From Candidatus Binatia bacterium (lineage in GTDB: Bacteria; Vulcanimicrobiota; Vulcanimicrobiia; Vulcanimicrobiales; Vulcanimicrobiaceae): a DNA stretch of 64,000 bases. Below are positions 7,656 through 11,995 of this stretch, piece after piece. The notes under the pieces were generated by a model. That model ran no database searches. It had not been told where the DNA came from and was given only the letters and a program-made list of their open reading frames with translations. Each line of letters starts with the position of its first letter. The first letter of the stretch is position 1. Where the stretch lies: assembly GCA_035544215.1 (NCBI GenBank), contig DATKHY010000003.1:310001-374000 (forward strand), in the 5' to 3' direction. The position numbers and the translations under genes were made by a program.

Positions 7656-7682
7656 AAAAAGGCCCCGAAATGGGGCCTTTTT
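7656..7682. terminator. Bidirectional intrinsic terminator
   Basis: A perfect 11-bp inverted repeat (AAAAAGGCCCC at 7656-7666, GGGGCCTTTTT at 7672-7682) has a 5-base loop and ends in T runs on both strands. It terminates the + strand genes ending at 7649 and the - strand regulator gene, whose TAA (7683-7681) reaches into the stem. It is the clearest terminator in the window. Confidence 0.93.
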
Positions 7683-8628
7683 AAACTGGTGGGGCTGGGA
7701 CGTTGTGAGCGAAGGCCTCAAGGCGCGCGCGGTCGATCGCTCGCACTCGTCCCCGGTCCAACTCGAGCGCGCCGGCGTTCTTGAGGCGAAGCAACGCGCG
7801 CGCGGCCATGTCGCGCACGGTGCCGGCGGCCGCGGCGATCTGCGCCTGCGAGAGGTTTTCGACGCCCGGGAGGCCGCGGGCCATCCCGACCGACGCGCGC
7901 GCGTAACCGAGTAAGAACTTCGCGACGCGCTGCAACACGTGGGCGAACGCGAGGTCCGCGATCGTGTCGATCGAACGGCGGCGCGCCTGTGACGACGCGA
8001 TCAGGAAACCCAACGCGAGTTCAGCGTCGTTGCGCGCGGCGTGAATCACTGCCTCGCTCGGCAGCGTCAGGATGGTAACGTCCGTCAGCGCCTCAGCGCG
8101 TGTCGTGGCTCCGCCGCCGTCGAACGTGCCGCTCTCGTTGAGCGTGTCGTGCGTGAGACGTTCGCCGATCGTGTGCGTCTTGCCGTCGGGGGAGAGCAGT
8201 GTATAGATGACCTTGCCGCTCTTTACGATGCCGAGGTACGGCCACGCCTCACCCTCGTCGAAGATCGTATCGCCGGATTTGTACGTGCGCTCCGCCATCT
8301 GGTCGGCGAGCTCCTTGATCGTGTTGGCCTTGGCGGAGGTGAAGGCGGCTACGTGCGACAGAAGAGCCTCTCCGTCGGCGTTTTCGTCGATGCGCTCGAG
8401 GCGAATGGTCCAGCGATTGCCGCCGAGGTTGCGCGCGTCCCATGAGAAGCGGCCGGGTCGCAGCTGGGCCATCTCGTTGCGCAGGGCGCGCGGGTCCGTC
8501 TCTTCGTTGATCTCGAGCGCGGCGCCGATCTGCAGCTTGTCGAACGTTTCGAGAATATGACCGGTCTTCGTCGCAGGTAAAAGCGACCGGGCGTCGAGCG
8601 TGACCGCAGCGGGTCGAGTGATCGGCAT
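7681..8628 (-). CDS. DUF2249-Crp/Fnr fusion transcription regulator
   Basis: This 315-residue protein has three parts. Residues about 8-80 match the DUF2249 pattern (LDARSLLP, LQIGAALEI, DPRALR, LRPGRFSWD). Residues about 105-200 form a cyclic-nucleotide-binding-type beta barrel (YKSGDTIFDEGE, VKSGKVIYTLLSPDGKTHTIGE). Residues about 225-300 form a Crp-type winged helix (LSQAQIAAAAGTVRDMAARALLRLKNAG). No cysteine cluster for an FNR iron-sulfur centre is present. DUF2249 proteins often occur with hemerythrin, heme or nitrogen-oxide genes, so a redox or gas signal is possible but inferred. It is divergent from a thiolase, with a dyad between them (8689-8702). Confidence 0.85.
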   Translation of the reverse strand: MPITRPAAVTLDARSLLPATKTGHILETFDKLQIGAALEINEETDPRALRNEMAQLRPGRFSWDARNLGGNRWTIRLERIDENADGEALLSHVAAFTSAKANTIKELADQMAERTYKSGDTIFDEGEAWPYLGIVKSGKVIYTLLSPDGKTHTIGERLTHDTLNESGTFDGGGATTRAEALTDVTILTLPSEAVIHAARNDAELALGFLIASSQARRRSIDTIADLAFAHVLQRVAKFLLGYARASVGMARGLPGVENLSQAQIAAAAGTVRDMAARALLRLKNAGALELDRGRVRAIDRARLEAFAHNVPAPPV

Positions 8629-8688
8629 GCTCCGCCGGTCTTAGTGACCGCGCGCTACGGCGCCTGCCGGGGACGCCCGCGAGCACGC

Positions 8689-8702
8689 GCGGAATACTCC
8701 GC
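8689..8702. promoter_or_regulatory. Dyad GCGGA-N4-TCCGC, candidate operator
   Basis: A perfect 5-4-5 inverted repeat lies in the 80-bp gap between the DUF2249-Crp regulator and the thiolase, ending six bases before the thiolase ATG. The spacing matches the half-site geometry of FNR-type operators, although the half-site sequence differs from TTGAT. Binding by the adjacent regulator is inferred, and at this GC content chance is possible. Confidence 0.35.
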
Positions 8703-8708
8703 ACCGAT

Positions 8709-9926
8709 ATGAGCAATTCGATTTCGGACAACGACGTCGTCATTCTGGCCGGAGCCCGGACCCCGTTCGGCAATCTGGGCGGCGCGCTGGCGGGCCTCAC
8801 CGCCACGGACCTTGCCGTTTTTGCCGCCGAGGCTGCCATCGAGCGTAGCGGCGTCCCCAAGGATTTGATCGACGACGTCGTCTTCGGCAACGTCATCCAG
8901 AGCAGCGCCGACGCGATCTATCTCGCGCGGCACGTCGGTTTGCACGCAGGCTTGCCGGTCGGCGTTCCGGCGCTCACTGTCAACCGGCTGTGCGGTTCGG
9001 GGCTGCAGGCGATTCTTTCGGCGGCGCAATCGCTGGTGCTCGGCACCACGGCGTACGCGCTGGCCGGCGGTACGGAGAACATGAGTCAGGCGCCGCACGT
9101 CGTACGCGGCGCGCGCAAGGGCTTTCACCTAGGCCAAGACGTGAAGTTTGAGGATTCGCTCTGGACCGCGCTCATCGATTCGTACGGCAACACGCCGATG
9201 GCGATCACGGCCGAGAATCTTGCGAAGAAATACGGCGTGTCGCGCGAGGAGTGCGACGAGTTCGCGCTTGCGAGTCAGGAACGCGCGCTCGCCGCGCAGG
9301 GCAGCGGGTATTTTGCGGAAGAGATCGCGCCGATCGACGTCCCGGGCCCCAAAGGCACGAACGTGCGGATCGATAAGGACGAGGGTCCGCGCCAGGGGCT
9401 CACGATGGAGAAGCTCGGAAAGCTGCCCGCTCGTTTCGTGCAAGGCGGCGTGGTGACGCCCGGCAACGCGAGCGGCATTACCGATGGAGCCGCCGCCGTC
9501 GTGCTTACGACGCGCAAGCGCGCGATCGCCGACGGCCTGACCTGGATCGGCCGCCTCGTGTCGTCCAGCGTCGTCGGCGTCGACCCCTCGATAATGGGGA
9601 TCGGTCCGGCATTTTCCATACCGAGGGCGCTGCAGCGCGCCGGGATGGGGTTGAACGACGTCGCCGTCGTCGAGATCAACGAGGCGTTCGCGCCCCAGGT
9701 CATCGCGTGTCTGCGCGAGATGGCGTCATCGCAGTCCTCCGTTCTGGATGCGCCGCTCAATCCGCACGGCGGCGCGATCGCGCTCGGACATCCGCTCGGA
9801 GCGTCCGGCGCGCGCCTCGCCATCACGGCGCTGCACGAGCTGCGCGAGCGCGGCGGAGGATACGGGATCGCCTCCGCGTGCATCGGCGGCGGTCAGGGAA
9901 TCGCGGCGCTCTTTAGTGCAGAGTAG
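8709..9926 (+). CDS. Acetyl-CoA C-acyltransferase (thiolase)
   Basis: This 405-residue degradative/biosynthetic thiolase catalyses reversible condensation or cleavage of acyl-CoA with CoA. The nucleophilic Cys95 is in NRLCGSGLQA, the GGTENMS motif follows, and NPHGGAIALGHPLGASGAR carries the catalytic His. The C-terminal acid/base Cys is in SACIGGGQG. The protein is full length. Whether it prefers acetoacetyl-CoA (acetyltransferase) or longer 3-ketoacyl-CoA cannot be set from motifs alone. The enoyl-CoA hydratase at 10467 could act in the same beta-oxidation or butyrate-type route. It overlaps the following thioredoxin gene. Confidence 0.93.
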   Translation: MSNSISDNDVVILAGARTPFGNLGGALAGLTATDLAVFAAEAAIERSGVPKDLIDDVVFGNVIQSSADAIYLARHVGLHAGLPVGVPALTVNRLCGSGLQAILSAAQSLVLGTTAYALAGGTENMSQAPHVVRGARKGFHLGQDVKFEDSLWTALIDSYGNTPMAITAENLAKKYGVSREECDEFALASQERALAAQGSGYFAEEIAPIDVPGPKGTNVRIDKDEGPRQGLTMEKLGKLPARFVQGGVVTPGNASGITDGAAAVVLTTRKRAIADGLTWIGRLVSSSVVGVDPSIMGIGPAFSIPRALQRAGMGLNDVAVVEINEAFAPQVIACLREMASSQSSVLDAPLNPHGGAIALGHPLGASGARLAITALHELRERGGGYGIASACIGGGQGIAALFSAE

Positions 9927-10470
9927 CGAACCCGCGCGACGGCCGCTTCCACTCGGGCGCATCTGGGACGTCGTCGCGCTCGTCGTCGTCGCGTTCGCGC
10001 TGTGGAAGATCTTCGTCGCGCCGCGGTCGTTCGCGCCGCCGCGCAGCTTCCCCGCGCCCCACGCGGTCTACGAGCGACTCGATGGAGACGCGTTTCGCGT
10101 GACGGCCGCGCGCGGACGCGTCGCGTTCTTGGACTTTTACGCGACCTGGTGCGTGCCGTGCAAGATCGAGCTGCCGCTCGTAGAGGCGTGGTCGCAAAGG
10201 CATCCCGAGGCCGTCGTCGTGCCGATCGACGTCGGCGAGCCGCGTACGGTCGCGAGCAGCTTCGCGCGCCGCCTTGGATTGCGCGGCGTCGCGCTCGACC
10301 CGGGCGCGAGCGCTGGCGCGCTATTCGGGGTGGAGGGCTTCCCGACGATCGTCGTCATCGATCCGGAAGGCTACATTCGCGCGAAATGGCAAGGCCTCAA
10401 TCCGGCGATCGCGCCGGCAATGAGCAACGCCCTTCGACTCCGCTCAGGACAGGCTCCGTCGAAGGATTAA
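9916..10470 (+). CDS. Membrane-anchored TlpA/thioredoxin-like protein
   Basis: This 184-residue protein has one N-terminal membrane segment (about residues 15-35, VVALVVVAFALWKIF) followed by a periplasm-facing thioredoxin fold. The redox motif WCVPC sits in FLDFYATWCVPCKIE, and a cis-proline loop is seen in VEGFPTIVVID. Such proteins reduce disulfides in cytochrome c maturation or act as oxidoreductases. The GTG at 9916 overlaps the thiolase by 11 bases; there is no later suitable start before the membrane segment. Oddity: the last 12 or so residues (LRLRSGQAPSKD) are encoded by a dispersed repeat (10430-10466), so the native C-terminus has been replaced or extended. Confidence 0.85.
   Translation: MQSSEPARRPLPLGRIWDVVALVVVAFALWKIFVAPRSFAPPRSFPAPHAVYERLDGDAFRVTAARGRVAFLDFYATWCVPCKIELPLVEAWSQRHPEAVVVPIDVGEPRTVASSFARRLGLRGVALDPGASAGALFGVEGFPTIVVIDPEGYIRAKWQGLNPAIAPAMSNALRLRSGQAPSKD
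10430..10466. repeat. Dispersed GC-rich repeat, copy inside a coding 3' end
   Basis: This 37-bp element has terminal inverted arms CCTTCGAC/GTCGAAGG around a CTCAGGACAGG core. It matches the copy at 44544-44580 at 35 of 37 positions, the two differences being C/T in ACTCCG and GCTCCG. It lies wholly within the last codons of the TlpA-like gene and ends just before the convergent TTAA stop overlap. Similar CTCAGGACAGG/GTCGAAGG repeats are familiar in many GC-rich environmental genomes; the origin is unknown. Confidence 0.85.
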
Positions 10471-11252
10471 CGTCCCTTCCAGACCGGCTTGCGTTTTTCG
10501 AGAAACGCGCCGGTGCCTTCGCGAATGTCTTCGGTATCCACCAGCGTTCCGAATTCGAGCGCCTCGAGCTCGAGCGCGTCGTCGATGGCGAGATGCGCGC
10601 CGTTGTTGATGACGCGCTTACACGCAGCGATGGCAAGCGGCGCCTTCGAGGCTATGACTCCGGCGATTCGCTTCGCCTCGGTCATGAGCTCGGACGGCGG
10701 AACGACCCGCACCACCAGCCCGATGCGCAGCGCCTCGTGCGCGTCGATCATCTCGCCCGTGAGGCATAGATAGGATGCCATCGCCTTGCCGGCGAGACGC
10801 GTCGTGCGCTGCGAGCCGCCGTAGCCCGGGATTAGGCCAAGATTGACTTCGGGCTGACCGAACTTCGCGTTTTCACTCGCGATGAGGATGTCGCCGGCCA
10901 TCGCGATCTCGCAGCCGCCGCCGAGCGCGAACCCATTGATCGCCATGATGACCGGTTTACGCAGGCGCTCAATCTGACGCGTGAGGGCCTGTCCGGTGCG
11001 CGCCTGGTCGGCCCCGGACCCGGCCGTCGCCAGTGCGCTGAGTTCGGAGATGTCGGCGCCGGCGGCGAAAGCTTTCTCACCGGCGCCGGTGATGACAATC
11101 GCGCGCACGCTCTCGTTGCTCTCCATGTCGCGCAGCGCGTCGGAGACTTCCCGTAGTAGCTGGCTCCGCAAAGCGTTGAGGACGTTGGGCCGATTGAACG
11201 TGATCATTCCGATCGGCGCCTCGACGACGGTTAGGATATCTTCAAATGACAT
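10467..11252 (-). CDS. Enoyl-CoA hydratase/crotonase
   Basis: This 261-residue crotonase-fold enzyme adds water to 2-enoyl-CoA. Both catalytic glutamates are in the expected places: E115 in GGGCEIAMAGD and E135 in FGQPEVNLGLIPGYGG. The oxyanion-hole segments AGADISEL and ALGGGCE are present, and the CoA/trimer tail KRVINNG...LELEALEFGTL.DTEDIREG.GAFLEKRKP is full length. This points to a true hydratase and away from isomerase paralogues. Its TAA and that of the convergent TlpA-like gene share TTAA at 10467-10470. The upstream region is shared with the divergent phoU promoter. Confidence 0.92.
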   Translation of the reverse strand: MSFEDILTVVEAPIGMITFNRPNVLNALRSQLLREVSDALRDMESNESVRAIVITGAGEKAFAAGADISELSALATAGSGADQARTGQALTRQIERLRKPVIMAINGFALGGGCEIAMAGDILIASENAKFGQPEVNLGLIPGYGGSQRTTRLAGKAMASYLCLTGEMIDAHEALRIGLVVRVVPPSELMTEAKRIAGVIASKAPLAIAACKRVINNGAHLAIDDALELEALEFGTLVDTEDIREGTGAFLEKRKPVWKGR

Positions 11253-11300
11253 GCGTTAACCTTTAATGAATCGATAAAGGATGAAGGTTCTTTCGTTGCA

Positions 11301-11329
11301 TTGCGGGGAAGTGCCCTCCGTCCTATACT
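11301..11329 (+). promoter_or_regulatory. Sigma-70-type promoter for phoU
   Basis: TTGCGG (11301-11306) and TATACT (11324-11329) are separated by 17 bases, close to the housekeeping consensus. The predicted start near 11336 lies after the in-frame ATG at 11333 but before the GTG at 11354, which has GGGAGG five bases upstream. The promoter therefore supports the GTG start of phoU. Confidence 0.6.
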
Positions 11330-11353
11330 ACAATGGAAGTGCGGGAGGTTAGA

Positions 11354-11995
11354 GTGGCGGTTCGGACGGCGTACCACGAGGCTTTGGAAGCGACGAGGCT
11401 CGATGTCGTTCGACTCGGCGCGCTCGTGGGCGACGCGATTCGAGTCGCCGTCGATGCGCTCAACAACCGCGACGCATCCTCCGGGGCGCGGGTTGTGGCG
11501 GGCGATGACGTCGTCGACGACCTCCGCCGCCGAATCGAGGCGCACTGCATCGAGCTGATCTGGCGGCAGCAGCCCGTCGCCGGAGAGCTGCGCGAGATCG
11601 CGGCAATGCTGGAAATCGCGACCGACCTAGAGCGCGTCGGCGACTACGCCGTCGACATCTCGAAGAACGCCATTAAGCTTTCGGACCAGCCCATGCGGCC
11701 GCAGCGCGTCGAGATCGATCGAATCGCTGCCGTCGCGCACGCCATGCTGCTCGACGCCATGCGGGCCTACACGGAACGCGACGCCCAGTTGGCGAGCGAG
11801 GTGATCGACCGCGACGACGAGGTCGACAAGCTCTACAAGCGCAGCATCAAGCTGCTGCAGGAGGAGATGCGGTCGGATCCGGAGATCATCCGCCCCGGCA
11901 CGCGGTATCTGTTCGTGCTCGCGTCGATCGAGCGGGTCGGCGACCGTGCCGGCAACATCGCCTGGCACACGAAGGACATGATCGGCGCGCAGTGA
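11354..11995 (+). CDS. phoU: PhoU-family phosphate signalling protein
   Basis: This 213-residue all-helical protein has two PhoU repeats, each with a metal-binding acidic signature: ATDLERVGDYAVDI in the first half and ASIERVGDRAGNIA in the second. PhoU normally moderates the Pst transporter and PhoR kinase. No pst or phoBR gene is in the window, so it may act alone or with distant partners. The GTG at 11354 is preferred over the ATG at 11333 because GGGAGG lies five bases before the GTG and the promoter predicts a transcript starting at about 11336. The GTG start gives the usual RTAYHEAL-type N-terminus. The stop overlaps the next GTG (GTGA). Confidence 0.9.
   Translation: MAVRTAYHEALEATRLDVVRLGALVGDAIRVAVDALNNRDASSGARVVAGDDVVDDLRRRIEAHCIELIWRQQPVAGELREIAAMLEIATDLERVGDYAVDISKNAIKLSDQPMRPQRVEIDRIAAVAHAMLLDAMRAYTERDAQLASEVIDRDDEVDKLYKRSIKLLQEEMRSDPEIIRPGTRYLFVLASIERVGDRAGNIAWHTKDMIGAQ

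Follow-up and report, generated by a model that had tools for sequence, protein, structure and literature searches.

Proteins with a DUF2249 domain, a family that we take to be the same as COG4309, recur beside genes of denitrification and hemerythrin, with no function assigned to them. As far as the accessible text of the respective reports goes, DrpA and DrpB of Thermus thermophilus are DUF2249 proteins of nitrate respiration and denitrification that change the expression of the denitrification regulators DnrS and DnrT (PMC6282519), in Haloferax mediterranei all four proteins with this domain are tied to denitrification (PMC11218638) and COG4309 adjoins norB (PMC1274295). Furthermore, two annotated DUF2249 genes of a Sinorhizobium plasmid are no more than 12 kb away from norD and an nnrS-family gene, and in the Thermus annotation a Crp/Fnr gene stands beside a GAF gene adjoining nar. 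DnrT is presumably of the Crp/Fnr type. In the Thermus system the DUF2249 proteins are distinct from the regulator, whereas the protein described here holds both in one chain.

For the regulator part of this protein, the best PDB sequence matches, over residues 87-304, were GlxR of Corynebacterium (3r6s/4cyd) and Mycobacterium Crp (3i54). These have the beta-roll, dimer helix and helix-turn-helix in common with it and were 27-29% identical to it in a fold search, but they are without DUF2249 and carry an arginine where it has Ala174. The nitric oxide regulator DNR (PDB 3dkw) matched with an E value of 3.6e-7 over residues 117-306 only.

A DUF2249 domain in front of a Crp-type regulator

The window, by which we mean the whole stretch of 64,000 nucleotides analysed, encodes this protein of 315 residues on its minus strand (8628..7681, with an ATG at 8628). 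An earlier note on this DNA had read it as a DUF2249 domain, expected at residues 8-80, followed by a cyclic-nucleotide-type domain and a Crp helix-turn-helix, and all three scored above their Pfam cut-offs. DUF2249 (PF10006) was found at residues 10-79 (8392..8601, minus strand) with 48.9 bits for a cut-off of 29.5 and an E value of 5.9e-13; the cyclic-nucleotide-type beta-roll (PF00027) at residues 114-197 (8038..8289, minus strand) with 49.1 bits for a cut-off of 27.5; and the Crp-type helix-turn-helix (PF13545, HTH_Crp_2), with T270-V-R-D-M-A-A-R277, at residues 233-305 (7714..7932, minus strand) with 40.1 bits for a cut-off of 27. The two latter matches, together with a fold search topped by Crp structures, place the protein in the Crp/Fnr superfamily. 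As all of its 53 PDB sequence matches start at residue 87 or later, its N-terminal part has no alignment to solved Crp chains and, as the note had assumed, is not an ordinary Crp N-terminus. In a full-length AlphaFold2 model (alignment of 25 sequences; mean pLDDT 88.4, pTM 0.73), DUF2249 appeared as a beta-alpha-beta-alpha-beta-beta unit preceding a Crp-like body. By homology, the protein would thus be a dimeric, DNA-binding transcription regulator of the Crp type with a TusA-fold DUF2249 in front.

Relatives with the same architecture are common. Scanning public genome contigs, we found 77 loci with the fusion, 65-97% identical to the window protein; with the window copy counted in, there are 78 distinct close relatives that are at least 65% identical. 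Two of the 77 loci are labelled Rhodospirillales, several 'bacterium' alone, and the others bear Eremiobacterota-type names. The fusions of the two Rhodospirillales-labelled contigs (L093 and L096) nest within the Eremiobacterota lineage in the tree described below, and these are probably mislabelled or mis-binned MAG contigs.

We also searched 148 genomes of the phylum, 116 in the source's class and 32 outside it, with a whole-protein profile made from 25 fusions. The fusion was present in 113 of the 116 class genomes (best E value at or below 2e-97), the three genomes without a match being 56-72% complete. Among the 32 genomes outside the class, 13 gave no match and 19 matched with E values of 1.7e-21 to 3e-30; all 32 matches in these 19 genomes start at profile position 68 or later, indicating that they cover the Crp part only. 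No full-length fusion was found in the 32 genomes outside the class. In the survey of related genomes that the note had called for, the fusion is a variant within the Crp/Fnr kind that runs through the whole class, and the 78 relatives and 113 class genomes rule out an assembly or frame artefact. None of the 43 plasmid records with a match had any place covering 80% of the window protein. As far as accessible literature on DUF2249, COG4309 and Eremiobacterota Crp proteins goes, a DUF2249-Crp fusion was not found in it, though it may be mentioned elsewhere.

Outside the class, DUF2249 was present in 5 of the 32 genomes (G055, G056, G059, G060 and G063), each with one hemerythrin-DUF2249 protein (at L192, L193, L194, L196 and L148), in which hemerythrin takes the place of Crp; two of these proteins also carry DUF438. 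A second protein of G059 joins DUF2249 to a NifU-like domain, G055 has an additional stand-alone DUF2249, and G056 has another frame with two DUF2249 matches. The seven out-of-class proteins scanned by Pfam (five with hemerythrin, one with NifU, one with DUF2249 alone) included no Crp fusion. The view that DUF2249 normally stands alone or is linked to hemerythrin fits these proteins and, in its accessible part, the literature.

Fold, selection and ligand residues

When modelled alone (pLDDT 82), DUF2249 took up the two-layer beta-alpha-beta-alpha-beta-beta arrangement of the TusA/SirA fold. In a comparison made by VIA-align on Foldseek's best 1000 chains, the top six rows were TusA/SirA-type chains (TsuB, a SirA-like protein and E. 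coli TusA) and HP1264, with Z scores of 8.3-9.7; Alba/IF3-like rows followed at 7.8 and less, only a small gap below. Foldseek alone gave no match under an E value of 0.001 for the DUF2249 model, and many of its rows were methyltransferases. At the sequence level, the top three matches of the DUF2249 profile among PDB sequences were TusA-family chains at insignificant E values (0.13-0.54), and PF01206 matched solo DUF2249 proteins of three genomes, at the same place as DUF2249, with E values of 3e-4 to 5e-4, which is under its cut-off. TusA/SirA sulfur carriers use a catalytic cysteine. This cysteine aligns with a proline in the DUF2249 profile, and the window protein has no cysteine at all. 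It thus has the predicted fold in common with the carriers (PDB 3lvj, 3hz7 and TsuB 8k1r; Z 8.8-9.7), but its DUF2249 is only 8-16% identical to them and lacks their catalytic residue.

Selection was assessed on 77 ungapped relatives, with pairs filtered to a whole-gene dS of 0.2-1.2. The median dN/dS was 0.18 for DUF2249 and 0.21 for the cyclic-nucleotide-type part; the linker had 0.30 and the helix-turn-helix 0.08. These values indicate that the DUF2249 of the window lineage is under purifying selection and has not decayed. Invariant residues made up 22 of the 70 positions of DUF2249 and 3 of the 19 positions of the linker (residues 80-98). Mean identity was 0.73 in DUF2249 and 0.78 in the cyclic-nucleotide-type part.

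Ala174 of the window protein aligns with the GlxR arginine that, as we assume, holds the cAMP phosphate, and an arginine at this position was found in none of 125 distinct fusions. R177, three residues further on, is an arginine in 115 of the 125 and might replace the missing residue. The oxygen sensor FNR binds its Fe-S cluster through cysteines. In the lineage of the window protein (lineage D, see below) no column has a cysteine in 80% of the rows. With no arginine at 174 and no cysteine, we rejected an ordinary cAMP-type Crp and an Fe-S FNR; both cAMP bound in the usual way and an FNR-type cluster are unlikely. The note's idea of a regulator with two sensor domains is not supported for the window protein, as its Crp-type domain shares the absence of Arg174 with all the other fusions, and threonines (T22 and T44) replace the canonical histidine pair of its DUF2249.

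Lineage D has histidines of its own, at position 230 in all 85 of its rows, 152 in 78, 196 in 75, 160 in 74 and 92 in 73. None of these positions reaches 80% histidine in the other three lineages. They sit in the effector domain and the dimer helix.

Four lineages, a histidine pair and probable nitric oxide reductases

The loci examined contained 166 full-length fusions, of which 125 were distinct. In a quick maximum-likelihood tree of these 125 (SH-aLRT only, midpoint root, with long-branch warnings), the rows were grouped by hand into four lineages: A, with 25 rows; B, with 5, including a second fusion of the window's genome; C, with 10, from another family of the class; and D, with 85, including the window protein and four proteins from a second family. 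The second fusion of the window's genome lies at G000:C7:496368-497303 (the same as L002:787-1734 and L150:9363-10310); both canonical histidines are absent from it, and its cyclic-nucleotide-type part was unreported by Pfam at E values up to 0.001. In another genome, one locus (L154, G127:C113) packs three DUF2249-Crp fusions into 13 kb; a tandem pair (9022-10011 and 10485-11489) is among them, with one very divergent member.

Histidine at both positions 22 and 44, the pair seen in DrpA-like proteins, was present in 23 of the 25 rows of lineage A and 6 of the 10 of lineage C, and in none of the 5 rows of lineage B or the 85 of lineage D. In lineage A, these were the only two columns of the whole protein with histidine or cysteine in at least 80% of the rows (position 22 in 24 of 25, position 44 in 23 of 25), which leaves two histidines as the candidate ligands of a metal or heme. 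In the DUF2249 model, position 22 lies near the start of helix 1 (residues 18-31) and position 44 in the loop that leads into helix 2 (residues 47-56), so that both are expected at the same edge of the fold. We only infer, since the tree was quick, midpoint-rooted and accompanied by long-branch warnings, that the pair was lost rather than gained.

The lineage A loci (from 25 genomes, each 3 to 19 kb long, with contig ends limiting some) were compared with 77 lineage D loci (median 11 kb). A gene for a divergent heme-copper subunit I was found at 13 of the 25 lineage A loci and at none of the 77 from lineage D. In 12 of these subunits the motif was legible, the thirteenth being a fragment, and all 12 have an asparagine four residues after the histidine (H-x3-N; GHTFAN or GHAFAN; loci L142, L143, L168, L157, L171, L165-L167, L170, L172, L174 and L175). 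This position is presumably that of the active-site residue tabulated for heme-copper enzymes. Such a residue is tyrosine in oxygen reductases and asparagine in sNOR and CuANor, according to the accessible part of PMC8756737 (Table A4). Judged by this motif, the Asn-type subunits beside lineage A fusions are likely NO reductases, which general oxidase models score poorly: two of them reached 57.8 and 50.8 bits on the NCBIfam oxidase model, for a cut-off of 670.75, whereas the heme-copper protein of L145 exceeded it with 683.7 bits. A CoxB-like second subunit, scoring under its own cut-off, adjoins one Asn-type protein. Within the 3 to 19 kb examined, the other 12 lineage A loci have no NOR-type gene; one of them (L145) has a Tyr-type oxidase and another (L163) an unclassified COX1-like fragment.

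At 13 of the 25 lineage A loci there is also a DUF2249 open frame apart from the fusion (none in the 77 lineage D loci), and some lineage A loci have FeS_assembly_P, hemerythrin or a TIGR04053 radical SAM protein. When the 77 lineage D loci were searched with the lineage A context queries, the only matches were 13 to the DUF2249 of the fusion itself. The likeness to NO regulators of the DNR/NnrR type lies with the lineage A sisters at likely NO-reductase loci. The window copy, unlike these, does not lie at such a locus, and the only PF00115 heme-copper subunit I match of its genome has the motif SHPAVY, indicating a Tyr-type enzyme. A denitrification role for the window copy, which we considered, is therefore unsupported, as no NOR-type gene was found near its relatives or in its own genome. 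That genome has just two DUF2249 domains, both within fusions; of its seven HTH_Crp_2 matches, six were read, and by eye three are Crp-type (two being the fusions) and three GntR- or DtxR-like. The earlier note had proposed to check metal, heme and NO binding of the N-terminal domain: such binding fits lineage A, with its histidine pair and NOR-type loci, but not the window lineage, which has neither. The two larger lineage C loci examined (L151 and L152) were without such a heme-copper gene and 6 of the 10 lineage C proteins keep the histidines, which suggests that the pair is linked to more than NO reductase alone.

Multi-TM proteins of about 400 residues beside lineage A fusions (L140, L142, L143, L145 and L146) had no significant Pfam match, and four of them checked in NCBIfam had none there; an identity as NnrS was thus unsupported for those tested. 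A search of the upstream regions gave no palindrome shared among lineage A or among lineage C genes, and 23 scanned loci of lineage A had no CRP box (TGTGA-N6-TCACA). The FNR/DNR box (TTGAT-N4-ATCAA) occurred in perfect form once in 191 loci (L163:4926-4939), about 20 bp before a lineage A fusion open frame, which is too little to build on.

Possible roles and the neighbourhood of the window copy

We tentatively favour the reading that the window protein is a derived housekeeping member of a family of NO- or respiration-linked Crp regulators, answering a signal other than cAMP. The family would have begun as a regulator of NO or respiratory genes in which the histidine pair at the edge of DUF2249 held a metal or heme; NO or O2 bound at this site would act on the DNA-binding helices by way of the linker and the effector domain. 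The window lineage would be a derived one, devoid of the pair and usually the core copy alongside other lineages, and for this lack of the pair its DUF2249 would probably be a docking or small-ligand module. The window copy most likely senses something other than NO or respiration. A bolder version appears doubtful: that DUF2249 is a TusA-fold sensor whose histidine pair reads NO or a related respiratory signal through a metal or heme, that its joining to a Crp output in this class produced one-chain regulators of NO or respiration, and that the branch including the window protein later lost the pair and took up a new signal as a housekeeping regulator of near-universal presence.

We also considered the possibility that DUF2249 is only a structural or dimerisation module of an ordinary Crp-type regulator that binds its ligand in the beta-roll. 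We hold this to be the less likely case. The histidine pair is absent from the window lineage, DUF2249 is conserved no better than the cyclic-nucleotide-type part, and lineage D keeps an acidic residue at 165 (Glu in 78 and Asp in 7 of 85 rows) and an invariant R177, so that some anionic ligand could bind the beta-roll. Yet the invariant residues of DUF2249 set it apart from a spacer such as the linker, the usual cAMP-phosphate arginine is missing, and the fusion is also found in lineages whose effector domains have diverged, as in the second copy of the window's genome. Alternatively, the window lineage may have moved its metal site to the effector domain, where H92, H152, H160, H196 and H230 would bind heme or a metal and DUF2249 would persist as a remnant or a partner-docking face. 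The high conservation of these histidines in lineage D alone is in keeping with such a move, but they may equally serve DNA binding or packing, and we regard it as improbable. It is more improbable still that DUF2249 acts as a TusA-like sulfur-relay partner, so that a protein donor would inform the regulator of sulfur trafficking or the redox state. The modelled fold, the TusA-family chains at the top of the profile search, the PF01206 matches and a nearby thioredoxin-like gene all point that way; however, the sequence matches are all weak, and the proline in place of the TusA cysteine, in a protein without any cysteine, argues against it.

Whichever of these holds, the fusion is a regulator that nearly all surveyed genomes of one bacterial class carry, and a natural link to a DNA-binding output provides a readable assay for DUF2249, by DNA binding or with a reporter. 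The expectation of the earlier note that the fusion could reveal what DUF2249 senses is borne out for the family, through lineage A, rather than through the window copy: the histidine-bearing sister lineages are the place where sensing of NO or respiration by DUF2249 can be tested.

The regulator gene of the window shares an intergenic region of 80 bp (8629..8708) with a divergent thiolase gene (8709..9926, plus strand), the candidate target. A thioredoxin/AhpC-like gene follows (9895..10470, plus strand; its start is uncertain and, as read, it overlaps the thiolase end), and then an enoyl-CoA hydratase/isomerase gene (10467..11252, minus strand), which is upstream in 55 of 77 related loci. 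Divergent neighbours were counted in the 70 loci with at least 900 bp upstream, 7 more being too short: the thiolase held this position in 48 and a thioredoxin-like gene in 14, while 8 loci had no gene of those in the window within 400 bp. The regulator would most likely control itself and the thiolase gene through their common promoter; where the thiolase is missing, the thioredoxin-like gene may often be the target.

A GGCAGG element lies in the intergenic region (8663..8668, minus strand), 19 bp from the TAA (8641-8643) of a possible -10 element, and recurs upstream in relatives. Of 73 relatives, 37 have it in the 100 bp upstream, compared with 3.5 expected from shuffles, and 32 have it together with a TAA at a spacing like that of a promoter, compared with 0.08 expected, counts that come from non-independent relatives and from a pattern picked after viewing the same sequences. 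The element is possibly a promoter or an operator half-site, both of which fit equally well. In the branch of L081-L091, the thiolase gene was not found at the fusion locus. By eye, an inverted repeat like CGCAGGG-N8-CCCTGCG stands upstream of the fusion in several genomes of this set.
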